Assembly (NCBI GenBank): GCA_009924135.1
Contig: RFSE01000014.1
Location: 1-62,011, forward strand
Length of the DNA stretch: 62,011 nucleotides
DNA from: Pseudomonadota bacterium
Lineage (GTDB): Bacteria > Verrucomicrobiota > Verrucomicrobiia > Limisphaerales > SXTU01
Direction: 5' to 3'
The notes under the pieces were generated by a model. That model searched no databases. It saw nothing but the letters and a program-made list of their open reading frames with translations, and had not been told where the DNA came from. Each line of letters opens with the position of its first letter. Positions within the stretch are counted from its first letter, which is position 1. Below are positions 428-27,000 of the stretch, piece after piece. The position numbers were made by a program, and so were the translations under genes.

Positions 428-3010
428 CTATTTCGGCGGTGCCGGGGTGGGTGTCGGGACGGGACGGACATCGATGAGCGGCTTGCCTTTCGGTGCGGCT
501 CCGGGCGGAAGCACGGCCTTGGGAGCCGGCGCGGGTACGCCAGTCGGAGGCGCCGGCGCGACCGGAGCCGTCACGGTGTTGGTCGGCGGCGGCGCATGGG
601 GACGCGGCACGGGCGGAAATGCGAGGTAGGATTTGTTGCCGATCAGATCCATCGGCGCCGTGAAATTCGGCCCCCCGGCGGCCACCGGCCCCATGCTGCG
701 CCCCAACTGACCCGGGCCAACCCAGAAGGAGTAGAGGCTCGCGTTCTTTACATGGAAACGCAGCTTCACCGGCCGGCCATACAGGCCCGCCTTCTGGAGA
801 TCCTGGATGCCATTCTGCCAGCTCACGCCCATTAACGTCTGATCGCCGTTCGACGGGTGGGAGTTCTCCTTGGAGAACGCCTGGAACGGCTCCTTCTTCC
901 CGTCGTTGGAGCTGACAATGATCGGGCGCCCATCAGGATGCAGCACCTCGATGCGGACTTCGCCGTCGGGTGCGTTCGTCTTCATGTTGATGAACATGAA
1001 ACGGGAGTTGAACTTCACCGGCCGCGTGGTCAGCACGCCGCCTTCCGGGCCGGCGTCCATCGAGCAGAAGCCATCCCGGCGCAGGAAGGCCAGACCCGTC
1101 GCGCCTCCGGCGTCGCGCTTGGCTCCCGCCCCCGCGCGTCCGCTGAAGTAGAAGTAAAGATTGCGGCCCACGACCTGGAACCCGCCCGCGACGGACTGCA
1201 CGTTGCCCCAGTTCCAGTCACCCTGCTGCTCCGACACATCCAGAAACGGCCGGCGATCCGGCCGGTCCCAATGGTAGCCATCGCGGCTGAAGCCCAGCCA
1301 GATGGAGTTGGGTTTGGGCCGCCCGGCGGGAATGTTCTTGTCGCCCCGCCAGACCGTGAACAGGCCGACCATCAGGCTTTCGTAAGCAACCGCATCCAGG
1401 TTGTAGAGCTGGGGTTCCACCTTCAGATCGTCGCGCATCGGGTCGAGGCGGTCGGAGCCAACCCACATCTGGGGTTCGGCGGGGTCCTTCCAATACGGTC
1501 CGGCCAGCAGATCCTTGACCTCCCAGTAACGGCGGGCGCGGGCCCCCTCCCAGCCATGGCGGAGACTGTAAACCCAGACATGCCGGAAGGGATTCCAGAA
1601 CACCGTGCTGCGGTCGCCCACGGAGGCGGTGCGCAAGGCGCGCGGTCCCCAGTGGATGCCGTCGTCGGAGAAATGCAGGGACAAACCCCACTTTTTATCC
1701 TCCCCATGGGAGCGCCACATCTTGTAACGGCGTTTCGGGTCGGAATCGTAGGGATCGAGCCAAACCGTCGCGGAATCGCGCGGGTCCGGCTGCACGATGT
1801 TGCTGCCGGGCACGACGCCGAAATCAGGTTTTTCCCAGTTGAGGCCGTTGGTGGAGACGGCCAGCGCCGTGCCCTTCCCGTAGCCGGCCATGTAGTAACA
1901 GGCGAATACCGGCTGCATCTTGAAGAGTTCGCGGGGGAACGCGTCCTCGATCAGCCAGCGGTTGAGCCGTTTGAGCTTATCCCCCTGCGGCTGCTGGGCC
2001 ATCAGGACCATGGCGCGATCGGAAAGCTGCACGCCGTTGTACCGCGCCGGCTCATGCAGCAGCGGTCCGGCCATCAGCCGGTTGAACTCGGCCGCCAGCA
2101 GCTTCTGCATCGCTTCGATGGCCGGCATGTCCTTGCCCTTGAAGTCCTTGATGGCGGCCTTGGCCTCGGCGGACAGGCTTTCGCCGAAGAAGTTGCCCAG
2201 CAGGTTGGTGCCGGGCTTGAGCCGTTCGAGGAGGCTGAAGACATCCATCACTTCCTCGGGTCGGAAGGCCGGCGGAGAAATCCAGTTCATTGGATCAAGC
2301 CAGACGCCGTCGCTGAACGGCATGGCCATGGGGCCGCCGGTTTTCTCCCACTCCTGATCCGGTTTGAGCACCGGGTTGTTCGAGTAAAGCGTCGCCGAGT
2401 GCCAGACCCGCTTGAGCGAGGTGCTGTCGATGAGGAAGTCGTCCACAAACAACTGGCGGCCCGCCGTGATGTCAATGACCGGCGGCGGATTGCTCAGATA
2501 AGGCACGGCCATGGGCTCGCCGGCCTTGAACTCGTCCTTCGGCGGCCAGACCTGGGGCAGGACGATGCCGTTGTAGAGCGTCTCACCCGTCGGCGCGGCC
2601 AGGACCGGAGGGACCGGGGCCGGGGCGTTCTGGGCCGTCAGCAACGGCGGCATGGCGGGATTGGCGGAAGCCGAAGCCGCCGTGCGATTGGTCAGTTGGA
2701 AGATGGTGTTCGACTGGCCCGGCGTCAGCGGCGAGGTGGTCGGCGGGTTGTTCAGTGCCGCGAGTACCGAGGGCTTGGCCGGCTCCGGGTTGGCCGGCCC
2801 GACCGCGTGGCCGCTCTTCGAGGAAAGGCCGCCATTGCCCACGGCCCAGCCGAAAATTCCGCCCGCCAGCACCGCCAATCCGAGCCAGTGCCATGGAATC
2901 CCCCGGGCGGCAGGCAGCGAAGCGGGCACGGGCGACGCCGGGGGCGGCGCGGCGGAAGCCGGCGCGGGCGTCACGGGTTGCGACTGCGGACGATTTTTCT
3001 TTTTCGACAT
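428..3010 (-). CDS. Membrane-anchored GH32/GH43-like five-bladed propeller protein
   Basis: The 860-residue protein starts with a Lys-rich tip and a Pro/Ala-rich segment, then has one membrane helix at about residues 40-58, so it is likely anchored with the bulk outside. Around residue 190 it has the words GRQLFVDDFLID and VWHSATLY, which I associate with planctomycete and verrucomicrobial proteins of the glycosyl hydrolase family 32-like superfamily. Further blades contain repeated W-x-G-x-S-x-D-G patterns such as WLGFSRDGYHW and GLSLHFSDDGIHW. The C-terminal 70 residues form another Pro-rich tail. The substrate is unknown. Catalytic Asp/Glu residues cannot be assigned by eye, so hydrolase activity is inference. 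The next gene on the same strand is a small lipoprotein 76 nt upstream. Confidence 0.75.
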   Translation of the reverse strand: MSKKKNRPQSQPVTPAPASAAPPPASPVPASLPAARGIPWHWLGLAVLAGGIFGWAVGNGGLSSKSGHAVGPANPEPAKPSVLAALNNPPTTSPLTPGQSNTIFQLTNRTAASASANPAMPPLLTAQNAPAPVPPVLAAPTGETLYNGIVLPQVWPPKDEFKAGEPMAVPYLSNPPPVIDITAGRQLFVDDFLIDSTSLKRVWHSATLYSNNPVLKPDQEWEKTGGPMAMPFSDGVWLDPMNWISPPAFRPEEVMDVFSLLERLKPGTNLLGNFFGESLSAEAKAAIKDFKGKDMPAIEAMQKLLAAEFNRLMAGPLLHEPARYNGVQLSDRAMVLMAQQPQGDKLKRLNRWLIEDAFPRELFKMQPVFACYYMAGYGKGTALAVSTNGLNWEKPDFGVVPGSNIVQPDPRDSATVWLDPYDSDPKRRYKMWRSHGEDKKWGLSLHFSDDGIHWGPRALRTASVGDRSTVFWNPFRHVWVYSLRHGWEGARARRYWEVKDLLAGPYWKDPAEPQMWVGSDRLDPMRDDLKVEPQLYNLDAVAYESLMVGLFTVWRGDKNIPAGRPKPNSIWLGFSRDGYHWDRPDRRPFLDVSEQQGDWNWGNVQSVAGGFQVVGRNLYFYFSGRAGAGAKRDAGGATGLAFLRRDGFCSMDAGPEGGVLTTRPVKFNSRFMFINMKTNAPDGEVRIEVLHPDGRPIIVSSNDGKKEPFQAFSKENSHPSNGDQTLMGVSWQNGIQDLQKAGLYGRPVKLRFHVKNASLYSFWVGPGQLGRSMGPVAAGGPNFTAPMDLIGNKSYLAFPPVPRPHAPPPTNTVTAPVAPAPPTGVPAPAPKAVLPPGAAPKGKPLIDVRPVPTPTPAPPK

Positions 3011-3086
3011 ACGACGATTAAGCCAAAGCTGTTGGGCGAAGCCATCCGTTTTTCTACTGAGCCCCCTGGACCGTCAGACAGGCAGA

Positions 3087-3482
3087 CTAATCACTGCGCA
3101 CGGTGTCACCGACCCGGACCTCGCCCTGCGCCAGATCGGCGGCGAAGTTCGCACCCCGCGACTGGTTGGACACGATCACCACGCCGACCTTCTGCCCATC
3201 ACGATAGACGTTGAGCGACTGGTCGGCCGCCGGCACGCGACCGAGCGTGCCCTCAACCACGATGTACTTCAGCGGGCCGTTGACGAGCACGACGCGACCG
3301 GAGAAGGCCGTGACTGGCTCGATGACGGGCGGGGCATTGGGCGCGTTCTTCGCCGGCTTGGAGGAAGCGGGCTTGGTTTTGGCCGGTGGCGGGGTGCTGG
3401 CATCCTTCGCCCCTTTGGGATTGGTGCAGCCCAGGCCGCCCACCAGCAGGGCGGAAATTAGCAGTGTGACGGACCATTGCAT
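3087..3482 (-). CDS. Small lipoprotein, unknown function
   Basis: The 131-residue product begins with a lipoprotein signal (hydrophobic stretch ending GGLGC, Cys at about residue 19). A Lys/Pro/Ala linker follows, then a compact domain of about 70 residues with the words GRVVLVNGPLKYIVVEG and LNVYRDGQKVG. That domain resembles short beta-barrel modules found in verrucomicrobial lipoproteins. Its position just upstream of the GH32-like gene on the same strand suggests co-transcription. No specific role can be stated. Confidence 0.65.
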   Translation of the reverse strand: MQWSVTLLISALLVGGLGCTNPKGAKDASTPPPAKTKPASSKPAKNAPNAPPVIEPVTAFSGRVVLVNGPLKYIVVEGTLGRVPAADQSLNVYRDGQKVGVVIVSNQSRGANFAADLAQGEVRVGDTVRSD

Positions 3483-3635
3483 GAGGGCGCATTAGCGCAC
3501 GTCTTCCCGTGTGGTCAACTGGTAAATCACGCGCCGGACGGTTTCAGGAAAAGAAATTCTCGCCCCGCGCCGGTCCGCTGCTACTTTGCGCCATGCCCGC
3601 GCCGCATGAAGCGGCAGTGCGCAAACCCAGAACTT

Positions 3636-4052
3636 ATGGAAACCGCTGTTGCTCCGACCGCCGTGGATGGAAAAATCCTCGAACTCTGCCAGGCTCTCCT
3701 TGACCGGCCTGATTTCCCCGACCTGCGCCGCCGCATCGACGCCTTCATGGTGGATGAGAAGGTGAAATACGAGTACCAGATGCTCAACGACTCCGGCGCC
3801 ATGCTCCAGCAGAAGCAGCAGCAAGGCATGCAGATCAGCGAAGAGGAGATCGGCCGCTTCGAGGCCCTGCGCGACAGCTTCCTGAAGAACCCCGTCGCCA
3901 CCGAGTTTCTCGATGCACAGCAGGAGATGTCCCGGATTCAGGACAGCATCATGAAGCACATCCAGAAGACCGTGGAACTGGGCCGCGTGCCCACCGTCGA
4001 GGACATGAACGACGGCGGTTGCTGCAACAACCACGGCTGCGGGTGCGAGTAA
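3636..4052 (+). CDS. YlbF/YmcA-family protein with Cys-rich tail
   Basis: The product is an all-helical protein of about 138 residues. The middle has the YlbF-family look: charged amphipathic helices, the words EYQMLNDSGAMLQQKQQQG and FLDAQQEMSRIQDSI. In Firmicutes, YlbF/YmcA proteins form a complex that influences RNase Y; applying that here is inference. The C-terminus CCNNHGCGCE could bind metal. I chose ATG 3636 because the family fold starts there; ATG 3606 is in frame and possible, and the longer frame from 3477 is unlikely. It stands alone, convergent with the metallophosphoesterase, with a 15-nt gap. Confidence 0.75.
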   Translation: METAVAPTAVDGKILELCQALLDRPDFPDLRRRIDAFMVDEKVKYEYQMLNDSGAMLQQKQQQGMQISEEEIGRFEALRDSFLKNPVATEFLDAQQEMSRIQDSIMKHIQKTVELGRVPTVEDMNDGGCCNNHGCGCE

Positions 4053-4067
4053 GGCACCGGCGGACGG

Positions 4068-4961
4068 TTACGCACGCCACTTCAGCTCCACCGGCTTCCC
4101 ATGGGCCGGATGCTGCTCGTTGTGCGCGTGCAGTTCCAGCGTCGTGCCGCTGGCCGTAAGCTGGCAATCCACCCAACCAGTGGGCTGGTCCTTCGCAAAC
4201 GGGTAGGCCACGGCGGGCAGGTTCACGAGGTGCAGGCCGTCGCGTTCCTTCAAGTCCCACTTGTGGGAGTGGCCGAAGAACAGCGCCTTCACATGCCGGC
4301 GGGGCAGCAGCACCTCAAACAGTTCCGCCGTGTCCTGAAGCGTGCCGTTGGGCTTGGTGGGGTCCAGATGCGGGTTGTGATGCACCATGACCAGCGCCGG
4401 CCGGTCGCGGCGCTCATCCAGTGATTTCGCCAGCCAGTCGCGCTGGCTTTGCTCCAGGCGGCCCGGGGACTTGTCCACCACGTCGAGCGAGTCGAGGAGG
4501 AACCAGTTCGCCAGCGACGATTTCACCACGGAAACGTGTTTGCCCTGCACCGGACGCGCGCCCTCGGCGGCCACTTTCAACGCCTGCCAGAAGTTGGCGC
4601 GGTCGTCGTGATTGCCCAGCGTCAAATGCAGCGGCAGGCCGGCTTCGACAAGCGGTTTAATGAGGCCGGTGAAGGTGGCGTATTCCTCCGGCAGACCGGC
4701 CTTGAGCGCGCAGTCGCCATTGATGAACACGCCGGCCAGTGATGATTTAACCCCGAGCACCGCCTGCACGGAGGCGCGCAAGTGATCGGCCATGTTGGTC
4801 TCGCGCGCCAGGGTCTCCGGTTTCGGGCCGATATGCGTGTCCGAGAGCAGGGCCCAGCGGGAGGTTTCGGCGGCGAAGAGCGGGCGCGTGGCGAGGAGCC
4901 CGGTGCCGGCAAGCAGGGTGCGCCGGAGGAAGGCACGACGATGGAGGAGATGCAGAGGCAT
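4068..4961 (-). CDS. Secreted metallophosphoesterase (calcineurin-like), Tat-type leader
   Basis: The protein has about 297 residues. The leader contains RRAFLRRTLLAGTG, a twin-arginine type signal. Mature-protein motifs match calcineurin-like phosphoesterases: LLSDTHIG (first metal-binding Asp/His), a GD motif in FINGDCA, GNHDDR, VMVHHNPH and FFGHSHKWD. All usual metal ligands appear present. The substrate is unknown; family members hydrolyse phosphomono- or diesters and usually bind two metals. ATG 4961 was chosen because the Tat leader begins just after it; the longer ORF to 5027 adds residues without leader character. The upstream region is occupied by a palindromic repeat and a tRNA fragment. 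Confidence 0.85.
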   Translation of the reverse strand: MPLHLLHRRAFLRRTLLAGTGLLATRPLFAAETSRWALLSDTHIGPKPETLARETNMADHLRASVQAVLGVKSSLAGVFINGDCALKAGLPEEYATFTGLIKPLVEAGLPLHLTLGNHDDRANFWQALKVAAEGARPVQGKHVSVVKSSLANWFLLDSLDVVDKSPGRLEQSQRDWLAKSLDERRDRPALVMVHHNPHLDPTKPNGTLQDTAELFEVLLPRRHVKALFFGHSHKWDLKERDGLHLVNLPAVAYPFAKDQPTGWVDCQLTASGTTLELHAHNEQHPAHGKPVELKWRA

Positions 4962-5041
4962 ATGACAAAGTGGTGTTGGTCGGCTGGGTGCGAACCTGTG
5001 AGGTTGGCCCCGGCGATGCAAGCGCATTTACCTTCGGATGC

Positions 5042-5192
5042 ATCTTGGGGCACTGCCCCCGGAGCGCGGCTGTGTCCCGCTCGGCGCGGGATCAGCCGCA
5101 GCAACATGAGAGTGCCGAGCGGGTCGGAAACCCTCCACGCCTACTGCCAGACGCAGCCGCTGCGGCTGGTCTCCGCGACACAGCCACGCTCC
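5042..5192 (+). repeat. Palindromic dispersed element A, copy 1
   Basis: The core 5061-5192 begins GGAGCGCGGCTGTGTC and ends with a near-perfect reverse complement (15 of 16). The inner arms CGGGATCAGCCGCAGC and GCTGCGGCTGGTCTCCG also pair. An outer arm ATCTTGGGGCACTGCCCCC (from 5042) is shared with copy 2 at 16883. Other copies are at 30531-30661 and 44119-44239. The right side joins a tRNA-Arg 3' fragment directly. The octamer CTTCGGAT occurs at 5032-5039 and 5194-5201, flanking the copy, and may be a target duplication. No ORF is inside. Confidence 0.8.
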
Positions 5193-5238
5193 ACTTCGGA
5201 TCAGAAGGTTGCAGGTTCAAATCCTGCCCGGCGCACCA
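5193..5238 (+). pseudogene. tRNA-Arg(TCG) 3' fragment (anticodon loop to CCA)
   Basis: These 46 nt have exact tRNA geometry from position 31 to 76. They comprise A31, an anticodon loop CTTCGGA (anticodon TCG, arginine), an anticodon-stem 3' strand TCAGA, a variable loop AGGTT, a T-stem GCAGG / CCTGC with loop TTCAAAT, an acceptor 3' strand CCGGCGC, discriminator A and encoded CCA. The 5' half is missing: upstream lies palindromic element A, and no GCGCCGG acceptor strand is present nearby. This is the size and position of attachment-site copies left by tyrosine-recombinase elements that integrate at the anticodon loop of tRNA genes. It cannot make a functional tRNA. Confidence 0.85.
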
Positions 5239-5362
5239 ATAAACACGGAGGGGGTTAATCCGTAATAGCCCAACAATGACTTATCCTCGCAACGGAACAA
5301 AGTGCGCTATCCGGCACCAAATTAGGCGTTGGATGGGAAAAATCCAGGGTCCTGTCGCTTGA

Positions 5363-6439
5363 TCACTCTTTGCCCTTGGCCGAACGCAGGTCTTTGCGGC
5401 ACTTGGGATCAGCGGGCACGGCCGGACCGGTTTCCTCGACGGGCTGGTTGAAGAGGTAACGCCACACGTCTTCGTGGATGAACTTGCCGCCGGCGTCCTT
5501 CACGGCTGCGCCGCCGGGCACCACGGAACTGTGCGCCCGTTTCGCGTCGTTCTTCACATTGGCATCGGTGATCAGGCGGCGCGTATTGCCGTAGGGCGGC
5601 TTCGCCTGATCCACGTTCACGATGGGACCGAACTGGTGCAGGCCAAGCAGTTCCCACGAGCGGCAGTAGTGGTCACCGGACCAGCCGCCATCGAGCACGT
5701 GGCTGAAGCCGAAGTAACGGTTCGCGGGCGTGGCGGAGGGCAGCCCTTGCCAGATTTCAAACTGATCGCGCGGCCCGCAGAACATCACCACCCGGTCCAC
5801 CTTCACCTGCTTCGCAAAACGCGCCGCCGTGGTCGAGCCATGCGAGCTGCCGGTGATGATGACGCGCTCCCAGCGCAGGCCGGCTTTGTCGTCAGTGAGG
5901 AAGTAGTCCCAGCGGCCCGCCGGGTTTTCCTTCGCCAGCCATTTCACGAACTGGAACGCGCGCTCCATCATGCCGTCGGGCTTGGGGATGCTGACCATGG
6001 GGCTGACATCCTCGCCCGTCGCGGCTTCAAGGCGGATCTTGCCGAGGAACTGGCCATCGTCGCCGGGCGAATTAGTCCCAAACTTGCCGAACCAGCCGTT
6101 GGCGTAATGCACACGAATGGCGTGCAGCCCGTAGCTGTTCACGCGCTCGAACAGCGGGGCGCTGTGGCCCATCAGCCAGATGACGAGCTTGCCCTGCGGC
6201 TTCACGCGGGTGTCCACGGATGCGTGCTGGGTGTCCTGCGGCTTGCCGTCCTTCTCGAAGACGAACTCGATCTCGGGGTGCGGCTTGGCACGCGGATCAA
6301 TCAGGCTGGCCCGCCCCGTCAGCTCGTAACGCTTCGGCGCCGGGTCGTTGAAGGTCAACGGCGCGTCCGCCGCGACGGACTGGGCGCGAAGCAACGCAAG
6401 GAGTGCACAGCAAAATACCAGCGAACGAACAGAGTTCAT
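5363..6439 (-). CDS. Secreted alpha/beta hydrolase-like protein (BPSS1187-like)
   Basis: The protein has about 358 residues with a signal peptide (hydrophobic stretch ending ALLRAQSVAA). A strand-turn-helix with GSSHGS fits the GxSxG nucleophile elbow of alpha/beta hydrolases. A conserved His may be in the C-terminal words IHEDVWRYLFNQ. The overall look recalls the BPSS1187 family, but that name is from memory. It lies 89 nt downstream of another exported hydrolase on the same strand (6529-7584), so the two may be co-transcribed. ATG 6439 was chosen at the leader; the extension to 6490 runs into repeat-like sequence. The substrate is unknown. Confidence 0.7.
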   Translation of the reverse strand: MNSVRSLVFCCALLALLRAQSVAADAPLTFNDPAPKRYELTGRASLIDPRAKPHPEIEFVFEKDGKPQDTQHASVDTRVKPQGKLVIWLMGHSAPLFERVNSYGLHAIRVHYANGWFGKFGTNSPGDDGQFLGKIRLEAATGEDVSPMVSIPKPDGMMERAFQFVKWLAKENPAGRWDYFLTDDKAGLRWERVIITGSSHGSTTAARFAKQVKVDRVVMFCGPRDQFEIWQGLPSATPANRYFGFSHVLDGGWSGDHYCRSWELLGLHQFGPIVNVDQAKPPYGNTRRLITDANVKNDAKRAHSSVVPGGAAVKDAGGKFIHEDVWRYLFNQPVEETGPAVPADPKCRKDLRSAKGKE

Positions 6440-6528
6440 GGGGAAAGAGCTTAACCACGGAGGGACCGGGATGAACACGGTTTTTGTCACTCAGAAGACA
6501 CTGCAAACCGGAGGCACTGACCGATCCG

Positions 6529-7584
6529 TCAGCGCTGAATCTTGAGGTGCCGATCCAGCAGTTCCTCAGCAGCCGCCTGGGCTTCCGCCGGGTAGCGATG
6601 GCCCTGGCGGTGGTTGAGAAGCCGCACATGGTCCCGCGCGCCCAGCAGCTCATAGACCGGGCGGGCGGCCTCGATGAAGGCGGCGCTTTTGGCGCTGTCG
6701 GCGGAATTGCCGGCGAGGAGCAGGAAGGGGCGCGGCGCGATCAGCGCGAGGAGTTCATGGTGTTCATGCGTGAAACCCGGCGGTCGGCTGCGCGGACCGA
6801 GGTACCAGGGCGCATCCCAGTTGCTGAAGGTGAGCCCGATGCCGCCTTCGCTGAAGACCGCGACCTTGAACCGCTCGTCGAACGCGGCGGCGTAGAGCAC
6901 TTCCTTCGCTCCCAGCGAATGCCCTGCGCACCCGATTCGCTCCCGGTCCACCAAGGGCAACGACTCCAGATAATCCGCCGCGCGGATGCCGTCCCAGGTC
7001 ATGCGCGCCATGCCGGTCCAAGTGGGGTGACGCTGTTGCAGACGTTTCACCCACTCGGCGTAACCGGCCCCGTCATCGAAGATGAAGCAGCGCGGACACA
7101 CCACCACGTAACCGCGCTTCACGAGCTGCACCCCCTGCATCAGCTCCGGCACGGAAGCATCCAGGCCGGCCGCCTGCTGCGCCTGCGTTTTCACGGTCTG
7201 ATGGAACACGACGACTCCGGGCAGCTTGCCGGTGGCGTTCTTCGGGGTGAGCACGTAGGCATCGGTGAAAACGCCCTCCTCGACCTGATACTTCACGTGC
7301 TGCCGCGTGAACTCCGGGAGGGTCTCGGTGGCCAGCACCTCCACCTTCAACGGGGCGCGTTCCCGGGGGAACTCACCGAGGAACGCCTGCCACTCCGCGC
7401 GCACGGCGGTGCGCCGCTTCATCCACCCCGCTGCGGATGTAATGGGCTGTCCGCCCTCATCCACTAGCAGCGGACGGAGCTGGACCGCCGGTGACTCGGC
7501 GGCGGACAAGCGCGTTTGACCAGACTCACACAGCGCATACGCGGCGACGAGAAACGTCGGAAGAATTTTGGGAAAGCAACGCAT
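6529..7584 (-). CDS. Secreted acetyl-xylan-esterase/dienelactone-hydrolase-like enzyme
   Basis: The 351-residue protein has an N-terminal signal peptide. Its alpha/beta hydrolase core shows LPGVVVFHQT (oxyanion strand), the nucleophile motif CAGHSLGAKE and a late catalytic His in NHRQGHRYP; the Asp is likely in LLLAGNSAD. The AGHSLGAKE arrangement is typical of the Abhydrolase_7/acetyl xylan esterase-like group, which deacylates plant polysaccharides or other small esters. It precedes two ceramidase-like genes in a same-strand run (gap to 7604 only 19 nt), suggesting one secreted-hydrolase operon. Confidence 0.75.
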   Translation of the reverse strand: MRCFPKILPTFLVAAYALCESGQTRLSAAESPAVQLRPLLVDEGGQPITSAAGWMKRRTAVRAEWQAFLGEFPRERAPLKVEVLATETLPEFTRQHVKYQVEEGVFTDAYVLTPKNATGKLPGVVVFHQTVKTQAQQAAGLDASVPELMQGVQLVKRGYVVVCPRCFIFDDGAGYAEWVKRLQQRHPTWTGMARMTWDGIRAADYLESLPLVDRERIGCAGHSLGAKEVLYAAAFDERFKVAVFSEGGIGLTFSNWDAPWYLGPRSRPPGFTHEHHELLALIAPRPFLLLAGNSADSAKSAAFIEAARPVYELLGARDHVRLLNHRQGHRYPAEAQAAAEELLDRHLKIQR

Positions 7585-7603
7585 GGAACGGGAGCGAGGA
7601 TGG

Positions 7604-9037
7604 CTATTTCGTGTCGGCTTTCAACTGCGCGAGCATCTCCAGCAGGTGCCGGGTGAGAATGACGGTGGTGTCCTCCTGCACCACGTTGGTGCCCAGCCAG
7701 GTTTCGTAACCGCCGAGCTGGTGCTGCTCCGGCGTCGGGAGGTAGCCGTGGCGGCCGTTGGCCAGGCCGATGACCATGGTCTGCGGGAACGGACTCCGAT
7801 GCTTCAAGTCGAGCCCCGTCTCGGCGAAGGTCTCGAACGGAATGCCGCACACCGCCAGGTCCCCGATGCGCAGGGCCTGCAACTTCACGGTCAGCGTTTC
7901 CTCCTTGCGGTCGGCGGCGGAGACGGTACTGCGCGCGTAATTCTCCGCCAGCCGCGGGAGCTTCTCCTTGGCCGCGGGATCAGTGACGGCGAGGACGGCC
8001 CGCGCCTCGGCCAGTTGCTGGGCCGTCGGCCGGCGATACTTCAAAACGACCTCGCGCTGCACCATGCCGAGCCGGGCTTCGCCGAGATGCTTCCCGATCT
8101 TCTGCTGCGCGTGCCACGCCGTGTCGGCGGCCTTGCCGGCGACGATGCGGATCTGTTCGAAGGGTGCGCGCGGCGGACGGACGACGCCGAAGGGGATGTT
8201 GTTGATGTCCCCGGACGTGCCGTTGGACATCATCGCCACGAAACCATCGTCCGCGCGCACGCGGGCGGGCATGAGCCGGGCGAACTCGCCGAAATAATCC
8301 GCCGAAACCTGCGCCGGCGGCATCCCGCCGACGTAGTGGAGCGAGTAATTCGCAAAGAGCGCCAGCGGCCGGCGCTTCGCGTCCTGTACGGAGAGAATCG
8401 TGATGTCAGGATCGGTCGGCCCGGCGGGGTGATCCAGCACGGTGGGGCTGGTGCCGGGATTCATCTTCACGGTGTCGAGCTTGCCGAAGGGATTCAGCGG
8501 CATCTGGCCCGGCTTGAGGTACCAACGCCGGTTGAACACCTCGTCCGGCAACGGATGCGCCGCCGCACCGACCAGGGCGGGCCGCAACGCCGCGTGGGCC
8601 TGGACGATCGCTTCGGCGATGCCCTCGATGAGGAGCTTGCGATACGCCACAGCGGGCGCGGGTCCGGTCTTGGTGTTCGAGGACGGCGCGGTGTGCGAGT
8701 GCGTGGAGGCGATGAGCATCTTGTCCGGGGCCATGCCGGTGCGCTTCGCGGCGATGCCCTTGGCCTCGTCCTGCACTTCCGGCGCGAGGCCGAGATTGTC
8801 CACGACCACCATGGCCAGCATGGTCGTGCCGTCGTCGAGCACCAGCGCGCGGGCATGCAGCGGGTCATGCGCATTGGTCGCCAGGTTCGCCGCAAACCCA
8901 CCGGGCATGTTCAGCGGAAACTCGCGCGGCGTAATGTCCACGGCGGCAGCCCCGGCGCGCAGGACCGGCTTGTCCGCCGCGTGCAACGTCAACACAACGG
9001 CGAAGAGTCCAACGAACCACAAGTGTTTCAGTTTCAT
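7604..9037 (-). CDS. Neutral/alkaline ceramidase-like secreted hydrolase (paralogue 1)
   Basis: The 477-residue protein has a signal peptide and an N-terminal domain typical of neutral/alkaline non-lysosomal ceramidase-like proteins: AAAVDITPREFPLNMPGG, then MLIASTHSHTAPS, where the clustered His residues are zinc ligands. MMSNGTSGDINN holds the usual catalytic-region GTSGD word. The true ceramidase C-terminal domain is missing; these short versions are common in Verrucomicrobiota and Planctomycetes and may act on other amides. The start is separated from the stop of the next upstream gene by only 13 nt, so the two paralogues are almost certainly co-transcribed. Confidence 0.8.
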   Translation of the reverse strand: MKLKHLWFVGLFAVVLTLHAADKPVLRAGAAAVDITPREFPLNMPGGFAANLATNAHDPLHARALVLDDGTTMLAMVVVDNLGLAPEVQDEAKGIAAKRTGMAPDKMLIASTHSHTAPSSNTKTGPAPAVAYRKLLIEGIAEAIVQAHAALRPALVGAAAHPLPDEVFNRRWYLKPGQMPLNPFGKLDTVKMNPGTSPTVLDHPAGPTDPDITILSVQDAKRRPLALFANYSLHYVGGMPPAQVSADYFGEFARLMPARVRADDGFVAMMSNGTSGDINNIPFGVVRPPRAPFEQIRIVAGKAADTAWHAQQKIGKHLGEARLGMVQREVVLKYRRPTAQQLAEARAVLAVTDPAAKEKLPRLAENYARSTVSAADRKEETLTVKLQALRIGDLAVCGIPFETFAETGLDLKHRSPFPQTMVIGLANGRHGYLPTPEQHQLGGYETWLGTNVVQEDTTVILTRHLLEMLAQLKADTK

Positions 9038-9050
9038 TAAATAAAAACGT

Positions 9051-10391
9051 TTACCGGGCCGGCTTGATCCCAGGCAGAAGTTGACGAATGGACTGCAACG
9101 CCTCGTTCACCAAACGTTCCCCCGCATCGGCGGCGAGGAAGCTGCACTCGGCCGCGCCGTAGCCGCCTTCCTTCACGGCTTGCACGGTGGGGAGATAGAC
9201 GGTGAACGGCGTGCCCCTCCCGCTGTAGGCCAGGCCGAGCACGAACGCATTCGGCACGGGCGATTTCGCCGTGAGATCTAGCTGGTGCTGCACGAACGGC
9301 TCGCCGGGGATGGCCACCAACGCGAGGTCGCGCTGGATGACCACCGTCAACAGGCCCACCTCGGTGCTCTGCGGGCCGCTCCGGTGCGGAATCGTCAGCA
9401 GGCTTTCCTTCACCTGGATCACCGGCGGCGCACTCGTCGCCGGGACTTTCAAGCCCGCGGCGAGCCGGAGGGCGGCCTTGCCGAGAGCGATGCCGTTCTG
9501 CTTCACGATGTTGAACCGGTTTTCGCCGCGCAGATTGTGCAGGTCGTACGGGTCCAGATCGCCCGATGCGCCTTGGAGGAACATGGCCATGCAGTCGCTG
9601 CCCAGCTCCTGCTCGAGGTGGTCCACCATCGCGCCCGGATAATCGCGCGACACCACGCCGGCATCCATGAGCGCCACCGGATGGCAGGCATAATGCACGG
9701 CGAAGGCGCGCGGCTTGCCGGACAAGTCCTCGACACGCAGCACACCCACGGTCGGGTCCACGGCCTGGGTGGGCCGGCGATTGGGATTTTCCCACATCGG
9801 GAGGACGCGGTCGAGCCGGACCTCGCGACGGTTGTGCGCCATGTAAGCGCTGTCATACGGTCCCCGGCCCGCGACGAGCCGCGCGGGGAAAAGGCCTTGC
9901 ATGGCCTTGCCCACGGCGGCCACCACCTTGGCCTCGGTCGCGGCATACCACGGGTCGTCCGAGAGCTTCAGCCAGTTGACCGTGGTGGACGGGCCGTTGG
10001 GATTGCGGGTCCAGTCGGGCGCGGCGGGGGGCTTGATGTGCAGGCCGCGCGGCGCCATGGCGGCGTGCGTGTGCGTGGCGCAGAGCAGGACGTGGTCCAC
10101 GCCCCATTGACGCTTCGCCTCGGCAATCACCTTCGGCGACGCAAAGACGATCAGGTCCGCCGACACGATGGCCACGGAGGTCCGGCTGTCCTTGAGCACC
10201 AGCACGCGGCCGAAGAGCGGATCACGCAGGCGCAACGGCTGGCCGGCCAGATTGACGGCGTCCGCCTCCGGCGGGGTGATCTCGATCTTCGCCGTGCCGG
10301 CCCACAAGCCCGACGGCGACTCGGCGGCACGGGGGGCGACGAAGGGAATCACCCACAACAGCAGGGCGAAGAGGAAGGGCAATGGTTTCAT
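9051..10391 (-). CDS. Neutral/alkaline ceramidase-like secreted hydrolase (paralogue 2)
   Basis: The 446-residue protein has a signal peptide and the same architecture as the gene at 7604-9037: GTAKIEITPPEADAVNLAG, LLCATHTHAAMAP (zinc His cluster), MFLQGASGDLDPYD and a late GLAYSGRGTPFTVYLPT. It is clearly a tandem paralogue, though diverged. The family hydrolyses the N-acyl bond of ceramide; here only the N-terminal domain is present, so substrate is open. It is the first gene of the minus-strand run 10391-5363. Its upstream flank starts with an inverted repeat at 10434. Confidence 0.8.
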   Translation of the reverse strand: MKPLPFLFALLLWVIPFVAPRAAESPSGLWAGTAKIEITPPEADAVNLAGQPLRLRDPLFGRVLVLKDSRTSVAIVSADLIVFASPKVIAEAKRQWGVDHVLLCATHTHAAMAPRGLHIKPPAAPDWTRNPNGPSTTVNWLKLSDDPWYAATEAKVVAAVGKAMQGLFPARLVAGRGPYDSAYMAHNRREVRLDRVLPMWENPNRRPTQAVDPTVGVLRVEDLSGKPRAFAVHYACHPVALMDAGVVSRDYPGAMVDHLEQELGSDCMAMFLQGASGDLDPYDLHNLRGENRFNIVKQNGIALGKAALRLAAGLKVPATSAPPVIQVKESLLTIPHRSGPQSTEVGLLTVVIQRDLALVAIPGEPFVQHQLDLTAKSPVPNAFVLGLAYSGRGTPFTVYLPTVQAVKEGGYGAAECSFLAADAGERLVNEALQSIRQLLPGIKPAR

Positions 10392-10433
10392 GGGTCGTGG
10401 TGGTCATCCTAGCTGCCGCAGTGGAAAAAGCCA

Positions 10434-16882: not shown

Positions 16883-17068
16883 ATCTTGGGGCACTGCCCC
16901 CGGAGCGCGGCTGTGTCCCGCTCGGCGCGGGATCAGCCGCCGCAACATTCGAGTGCCGAGCGGGGACGGAACACCTTTACGCCTCCTGCCAAACGCAGCC
17001 GCTGCGGCCGGTCTCCGCGACACAGCCGCGCTCCGGAAGATTTCTCCCCTCGGGGGCAGTGCCGAGAT
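16883..17068 (-). repeat. Palindromic dispersed element A, copy 2 (full length)
   Basis: The core is 16902-17034, with ends GGAGCGCGGCTGTGTC and GACACAGCCGCGCTCC (perfect complements). It is enclosed by outer arms ATCTTGGGGCACTGCCCCC (16883) and GGGGGCAGTGCCGAGAT (to 17068). This copy shows the complete nested structure of about 186 bp; copy 1 at 5042 lacks the right outer arm. It lies between the beta-helix and SGNH genes, just upstream of the SGNH start. Confidence 0.8.
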
Positions 17069-25416: not shown

Positions 25417-27000
25417 TTAGGGCTTCGCTTCGAGCTTGAGCGCCTCGCGGAATTTCGCGAGCGACTCCTGCTCCTTGCCTTGCGCGGCATAGGCGTGACC
25501 GTAGGCGCGGAGCAATTGGATGCGCCACGTCGTGGCCATGCCGGCGAGGTCGCCGTACTGCTGGAGCACTTGGATGGCCTCGGCGGGCTTCACCTGGCTG
25601 GTGAGGATGCGCGCGATGGACACGGTGGCAGTGAGCGGCTGCCAGCCCTGGCCCTGGCCGGTGATTTTGAGCGCCTGACGAAACGCGGCCAGCGCCTGCG
25701 CGTCATCGTTCAGGTTGTTCACGTAATTCTCGCCGAGCGTGAGCCAGATGGCCGAGTTGCTGGGCGCAAGTTTTATAGCCGCCTTCAAGTCCGCTTCCGC
25801 GTGCGGGCCGTCCTTGAGGAAGGAGTAAATCTGCCCGCGCAAGTGCAGCGCCTCGCTGGCCTTCACCTGCGCCGGCCACGCGGCGAAGTCCTCCGCGCCG
25901 AACTGCGCGATGAGTTCCTTCCACTTCCGGTCCTGCTGCAAGGCCCGCATCCGCCCGAGCAGCGCATCCGGGTCCGCCGTGTAACTGTTGTATTGGGCGG
26001 CAACTTGGGCCACTTGCGCGTCGCCGTGGTGGAAGTAGAACCGGTTCCGCAACGAGAGCGTCTGCCCGGCTGCGAGCGTGAAGTCACCGGAGTGCGAACT
26101 GCACGCCGGGCAGTTCGTGCCGTAGGGCCGGCAGGAAAGCGTCTTGTGGTCGTTGTAATTACCCTTGAAGTGATCGGTGCCAAAGCGGTTGGCCGTCATC
26201 AGCCCGTAGGTGCGGGCGTGCCAGTGCGTGGGAAACCGCAGGTTCGTAGGGTGATCAAACATCGCGATGCCCACTGTCTTGCCCGTCGCATCCGGACCGA
26301 AGTAATCCGTCCATTCCGCGCGCTTACCCCAAGCCGCCTCGTTGCGGTCGCCCCGGCTGTTCACGATGGTCCCCAGGCCCTTCTCGCCCTTCTCCGACTC
26401 CACCTTCATCGTGCCCGCCACGCGGGTGAGCAGCCCGCCATCGCGCTTGTCGCCGAAGACCACCGGAGCGTTGGCAGCCTGGAGTTCCACATCGTAATCC
26501 ATCAGCACCTGCCGGTTCGCCAGCGGCGTGAAGGCCAGTCGCACCTTTTCGCGCAGCACCAGTTTCCCGTCGCCGAGCCACTGGTTCCACAAAACCACCT
26601 CGCCCGTCTGACCCGAGGTCATCCGCTCGATCTTCTCCAGCTTTACTTCGGCGGACTGGCCGGGTTTGGGCTTGGGCGGCGACCACCAGAAGTTGAACCC
26701 GTTGACGTCGCTGTGCGAAAAGCGGATCGAGCGATGGTGCGGGTGATCCACGTCCTCGCCCGGCACGCCCGGCTTCATCGGGAAGTGCCGCGTAACGTTT
26801 TCCCCGTTGGGACCGATGACGGGATAGAGATATGGCCCGACCCAATCCTTGTGCCGCCACTCGGTGAACACCTCACCATCAATCGTCACCCGGATGCGGT
26901 CCTCCAGCTCCGTGAGGGCGACGGCGGCGCGGAGCTGGCTGGTGCACGCCAGTAACGCGATGAGAGGCGTAAGCACAACTGACTTCATAAAGGCTTGCAT
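25417..27000 (-). CDS. Secreted DUF6807 (PmoA-like) protein with C-terminal TPR module
   Basis: The protein has about 527 residues. A signal peptide is followed by the DUF6807/PmoA-family domain: EVFTEWRHKDWVGPYLYPVIG, VDHPHHRSIRFSHSDVNG and later MFDHPTNLRFPTHWHARTYG. Despite the database name the family is not methane monooxygenase; members sit in sugar-catabolic loci. The final 175 residues form a TPR-like module (ALQQDRKWKELIAQFGAEDF) that closely resembles the N-terminus of the next gene. ATG 27000 or 26988 could be the start. Gap to the following gene is 27 nt. Confidence 0.8.
   Translation of the reverse strand: MQAFMKSVVLTPLIALLACTSQLRAAVALTELEDRIRVTIDGEVFTEWRHKDWVGPYLYPVIGPNGENVTRHFPMKPGVPGEDVDHPHHRSIRFSHSDVNGFNFWWSPPKPKPGQSAEVKLEKIERMTSGQTGEVVLWNQWLGDGKLVLREKVRLAFTPLANRQVLMDYDVELQAANAPVVFGDKRDGGLLTRVAGTMKVESEKGEKGLGTIVNSRGDRNEAAWGKRAEWTDYFGPDATGKTVGIAMFDHPTNLRFPTHWHARTYGLMTANRFGTDHFKGNYNDHKTLSCRPYGTNCPACSSHSGDFTLAAGQTLSLRNRFYFHHGDAQVAQVAAQYNSYTADPDALLGRMRALQQDRKWKELIAQFGAEDFAAWPAQVKASEALHLRGQIYSFLKDGPHAEADLKAAIKLAPSNSAIWLTLGENYVNNLNDDAQALAAFRQALKITGQGQGWQPLTATVSIARILTSQVKPAEAIQVLQQYGDLAGMATTWRIQLLRAYGHAYAAQGKEQESLAKFREALKLEAKP

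Follow-up and report, generated by a model that had tools for sequence, protein, structure and literature searches.

How did the 3' half of a tRNA gene come to lie, without its 5' half, directly against a palindromic repeat in this genome? The window, the whole 62,011-nt stretch that was analysed, belongs to a 490-contig draft assembly of 6.68 Mb that is 90.45% complete. The features that bear on the question are listed below in window coordinates.

4068-5027, minus strand: metallophosphoesterase gene, the left neighbour (PF00149; strong homologue in 6 of the 10 other genomes of the genus)
5027-5035, plus strand: predicted left copy of a 9-bp target duplication, from the 9-bp rule of the repeat family; right copy lost
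5036-5059, plus strand: left terminal inverted repeat, slightly diverged, with the right one absent (by comparison with 39 copies, 34 end pairs)
5061-5192, plus strand: palindromic core of a MITE-like repeat (element A) with at least 39 other full-length places in the genome
5193-5238, plus strand: isolated 3' half of tRNA-Arg(TCG), from anticodon loop to CCA, identified by tRNA identity to relatives; probable att core copy
5194-5200, plus strand: anticodon loop CTTCGGA, the likely 7-bp crossover region judging from where identity starts in isolated copies
5363-6490, minus strand: conserved gene of unknown family, the right neighbour (no Pfam match; 79-85% identical homologue in 6 of the 10 other genomes of the genus)
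16883-17034, plus strand: second copy of the repeat in the window (91% identity)

The tRNA-Arg(TCG) half and its counterparts in the genus

Positions 5193-5238 (ACTTCGGATC...GCGCACCA) showed 2 mismatches to the last 46 of the 77 nt of the intact tRNA-Arg(TCG) called by ARAGORN in three genomes of the same genus (G003, G006 and G007), bearing out the preliminary description, which had read them as a tRNA-Arg 3' half lacking the 5' half. Base A5193 may instead be part of the repeat; the tRNA identity is certain from 5194. The T-arm, anticodon loop and CCA all read intact, and the piece reaches the 3' end of the tRNA gene, as a displaced 3' tRNA fragment does, and is broken at the anticodon loop, a crossover place. 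Over the window, ARAGORN called no tRNA and no RNA family reached its Rfam gathering score. The last 43 nt of the fragment occurred at one place in its own genome at up to 3 mismatches (reversed control, 0), and the 32-nt 5' half as found in relatives was absent at the same stringency. ARAGORN was applied to 30 fetched loci and a tRNA cluster on contig C180 of this genome, among its 47 Rfam matches; tRNA-Arg genes for TCT, ACG, CCG, CCT and GCG were found. Absence of an intact tRNA-Arg(TCG) from the genome, which the preliminary description had named as refuting its reading, is literally the case at the stringency used, but in a 490-contig draft that is 90% complete; the three relatives do carry the gene.

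Within the family (11 genomes, including the window's own, all of one genus), the tRNA 3' part was found at 7 places in 6 genomes at up to 3 mismatches. It belonged to an intact gene in G003, G006 and G007 (contig C124) and was an isolated half like that of the window in G004 (C180) and G010 (C69); a further contig of G007 (C782) starts 5 nt ahead of the half, which cannot be classed. No second copy was present in G004, G010 or the window's genome at this stringency. The contigs of G006 and G007 stop at the CCA of the intact gene, indicating that assemblies break at tRNA-Arg(TCG).

A tRNA gene decayed or split in place, with its 5' half diverged or encoded elsewhere, would account for the intact anticodon loop, T-arm and CCA in an assembly without an intact gene. 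This is highly improbable, however, given the absence of the 5' half from the genome at up to 3 mismatches, the complete genes in relatives and an upstream sequence that is a repeat present at many other places.

Isolated halves and integrases across the order

Across the order, the 46-nt pattern (up to 3 mismatches) was found at 115 places in 99 of 320 genomes. All 115 were read, and 87 scored as intact by a 24-nt test. Among the other 28, two had less than 28 nt upstream (L090 and L200) and two were judged complete by eye (L180, masked, and L240, with a different 5' half); 24 were isolated halves, the window's included. Identity to the intact 5' half began at A31 in 14 of the 24, at C32 in 4 and 1-5 nt earlier in 6, a common start that is partly built in, since the pattern begins at A31 in the anticodon loop, covers halves reaching that far 5' and misses those broken further 3'. 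The preliminary description had placed the break at the anticodon loop, as a preferred crossover place, and the isolated copies of relatives, whose identity starts at the edge of that loop or up to 5 nt before it, agree with it.

Two contigs carry several of these sequences on one strand. On contig C87 of G066 (L174), an intact gene at 755 is accompanied by isolated halves at 26631 and 37278, a tandem-island layout, and contig C74 of G264 (L183 and L184) has several isolated halves, as in tandem islands.

In G010, a 468-residue tyrosine recombinase, P0001 (PF00589, E value of 2e-12), starts 56 nt from the 5' side of the fragment and points away from it. Its PHROG match is integrase, it falls under every NCBIfam cut-off, and against solved structures it gave a single weak XerC-like match (4a8e). 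Searches with phmmer of open reading frames of at least 90 residues placed P0001 relatives 44-221 nt from the 5' side of 8 of the 24 isolated halves, G010 included (the one at L169 has just 95 residues), and a partial match downstream of one intact gene (L152). A profile search added weaker matches at L233 and L176 (intact) and at L179. Pfam analysis of ten further nearby open reading frames identified PF00589 at L173 (5' side) and L179 (3' side) and a serine resolvase (recombinase) domain on the 5' side at L188; the remaining seven contained no recombinase. A PF00589 protein was thus found within 221 nt on the 5' side of 9 of the 24 isolated copies (the eight P0001 relatives and L173); for the other 15, a scan of part of the nearby open reading frames found no tyrosine recombinase on that side (L188, with its serine recombinase domain, is one of the 15). 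Tyrosine recombinases are expected to carry the residues R, H-R, H and Y, and these align in the seven long P0001 relatives.

No P0001 relative was found in the window's genome, and G008 had one match, at 44%. PF00589 had 22 matches genome-wide and none on the window's contig; the integrase that the preliminary description proposed to look for between intact tRNA and fragment was not found there. Integrases adjoin isolated copies elsewhere. Exact matches to a 45-nt pattern were absent from viral contigs, and P0001 from viral contigs (peptide patterns with tblastn confirmation) and plasmids. Among the phage and plasmid records, the matches listed (20 of 459 and of 270) were tRNA-like only, none spanning 80% of the query.

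A motif near ATCAAGGATTT occurs in the first 40 nt past the CCA (111 distinct sequences) and may possibly be an integrase arm site. It scored above the 99th percentile of background in 32 of 85 intact and 9 of 26 other copies, the motif having been trained on the same sequences; after the window's fragment it was not significant (p = 0.18).

Separately, 8 of the 22 PF00589 matches in the window's genome lie within 1.5 kb of a tRNA match, compared with 0.5 expected (contigs C2, C41, C117, C173, C413, C487 and C489, with two pieces of one frame on C173), and tRNA islands seem to be common in this genome. In the cluster on its contig C180 (7000-10500, L079), seven tRNA genes are packed into 2.2 kb. 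One of them is tRNA-Arg(GCG), and Asn, Phe, His and Pro(TGG) are each represented there by a second gene; the array is phage- or plasmid-like.

The truncated repeat and the break in gene order

The left side of the junction is element A. A 207-nt query matched at least 43 listed places in its own genome, including itself and three short reverse ones, and the full-length count of at least 39 other places came from scoring 40 of 184 candidates. Positions 5032-5192 fold with a z score of -4.06. Read with their flanks, 29 of the 39 other copies had both ends recognised without gaps; among the exceptions (L040, L044, L046, L058, L061, L069-L072 and L076), L058 and L072 extend past the end of their contigs, and L076 appears truncated on its right side. 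Three copies (L051, L060 and L063) have the core in the opposite orientation to the ends. The family has 22-bp inverted ends and a unit of 194-196 bp (34 end pairs). Spaced at 9 bp, 23-29 of the 34 flanks matched per position, versus 8-14 at 8 or 10 bp; the duplication was exact over 9 bp in 11 of 34 pairs and over 10 in none, and had at most one mismatch in 18. The end pattern (up to 2 mismatches) matched 160 times in the genome (reversed control, none), and three stretches with several repeat ends contained only short units. Among the stretches fetched, similar pieces occurred in two other genomes of the order, G142 (L137 and L190) and G028 (L144).

Inverted ends with a duplication of fixed length, the mark of a MITE, were found for the family and not for the truncated copy in the window. 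Like bacterial MITEs, the family combines a length of about 195 bp, inverted ends, 9-bp target duplications, many copies and a strong hairpin; unlike them, it has no identified transposase partner, and the window's copy is without one end. REP/REPIN palindromes, which go with RAYT transposases, are likewise high-copy, but element A is much longer and carries terminal inverted repeats and target duplications. Neither the repeat family nor the tRNA-Arg(TCG) site is named among the literature matches listed for Verrucomicrobia islands and MITEs, which does not prove absence, nor is the repeat named in the available part of PMC3733652, on repeats in Verrucomicrobia and MITEs.

In the window's copy, the left end is GGATGCATC in place of GGGCGCATC, the core is present and the right end is wholly missing. 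The earlier statement that element A ends at the base preceding the fragment is right for the core and wrong for the whole repeat: this copy stops about 40 nt short, exactly at the fragment start, and other copies mostly continue. Six places in the genome matched the partner junction (a right end followed by the predicted 9-bp duplication) at 3 mismatches, none convincingly.

The 8-mer CTTCGGAT, said to flank the copy on both sides, does occur at 5032-5039 and 5194-5201, but its second occurrence lies within the fragment itself. Such a direct repeat bordering the copy would suit transposition of element A into an existing tRNA 3' half, with CTTCGGAT as the target duplication. In two-ended copies, however, the duplication is 9 bp long and adjoins inverted ends of 22 bp; the window's copy has no right end, and the left CTTCGGAT would cut into the left inverted end and straddle the predicted duplication. 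Loss of the last 40 nt or so exactly at the fragment start argues against a clean insertion into a tRNA piece, and we regard this alternative, raised in the preliminary description, as very unlikely. The 8-mer might also have served the integrase as a stand-in attachment site beside the repeat: recombination between att sites and high-copy repeats would have moved gene blocks and fused repeat and tRNA half at the exact crossover base. We regard this scheme as very unlikely. The common CTTCGGAT is modest evidence, as one of the 69 left edges examined in other copies also has an 8-mer, a different one, in common with the fragment's first 20 nt.

The neighbouring genes lie on separate contigs in all four relatives with strong homologues of both (G001, G003, G004 and G007). 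In G004, contig C213 aligns with window positions 431-4961 at 82%, and contig C58 with 5360-10394 at 85-90% with short gaps, so that gene order is broken at 4962-5359, the interval in which the repeat and the tRNA half lie. Within it, 5239-5362 had no homology to G004 above shuffles (531 of 1,000 as good) and 4962-5032 had weak homology (56 of 1,000 as good). The left neighbours are conserved genes of the genus, not island genes. The relatives are also drafts, and gene order around both genes varies among them. The junction of the flanking gene blocks is a rearrangement (or assembly) junction.

An assembly error would mean that contigs were falsely joined inside the many-copy repeat core, the fragment being real and its left neighbour not. 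The non-adjacency of the two sides in four relatives, the abundance of full-length repeat copies and the contigs of G006 and G007 that stop at the intact tRNA are all compatible with this. However, the genome has no second copy of the fragment at up to 3 mismatches, so the 5192/5193 junction does not itself lie in sequence common to two loci, although contigs might have been joined at a point to its left, inside the core. The local gene order of the relatives also varies of itself. We judge a false join unlikely, with an appreciable chance of being correct.

Origin of the fragment

Since the gene is intact in relatives, isolated halves recur across the order and recombinases adjoin 9 of 24 of them, the fragment is probably the displaced 3' half (attR type) of an island whose tyrosine integrase acted at the anticodon loop of tRNA-Arg(TCG), later brought against a truncated repeat. 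The relatives' intact and isolated copies and the integrases thus favor the first of the two origins offered in the preliminary description, an att copy left by a tRNA-targeting recombinase. According to excerpts of PMC4383910, an integrating island restores the tRNA while displacing a fragment of it, the anticodon loop is among three crossover places in tRNA genes, and 2,083 of 3,919 islands have anticodon-centred sites; displaced tRNA fragments are described as common in prokaryotes in the accessible part of PMC9897764.

We infer the same origin for the window's own fragment, and with it the order of later events. The island would have borne a copy of the tRNA 3' half, and its integration would have rebuilt the tRNA at one island end and pushed the original half to the other. 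Island and integrase would afterwards no longer have lain beside the fragment, and a deletion, a rearrangement or possibly an assembly join would have set it against the MITE-like repeat upstream of the phosphoesterase gene, a repeat that has lost its right end.

The fragment fits a known kind, the usual footprint of island insertion and an ordinary genome scar. As in category 1b of PMC9897764 (partial tRNA genes from mobile-element integration), so far as the excerpts define it, the gene is complete in relatives and the break is at a known crossover place, but the mobile element was not found beside the fragment. With Islander-type islands of anticodon-loop site 'A', as outlined in those parts of PMC4383910, it shares the 3' fragment running to CCA, the integrase beside relatives' fragments and the tandem layout in G066, and it differs in that the assembly lacks an intact tRNA and the contig an integrase. 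Two things are unusual: neither the island nor an integrase nor the intact tRNA was found, and the break lies directly against a truncated repeat. Of the Islander signature, the intact cognate tRNA on the same replicon was not seen in this 90%-complete draft, and the fragment is therefore not filed as a complete island; nor was an integrase between tRNA and fragment seen on the window's contig. With both missing, Islander-type calling would skip this fragment.

If this explanation is correct, the fragment records an island that once occupied tRNA-Arg(TCG), and islands have landed at that gene repeatedly across the order, with integrases of a recognisable group. It would further suggest that the orphan half of a tRNA can persist after its island has gone, as a marker of genome rearrangement, and that such halves escape island finders requiring both an integrase and an intact tRNA.
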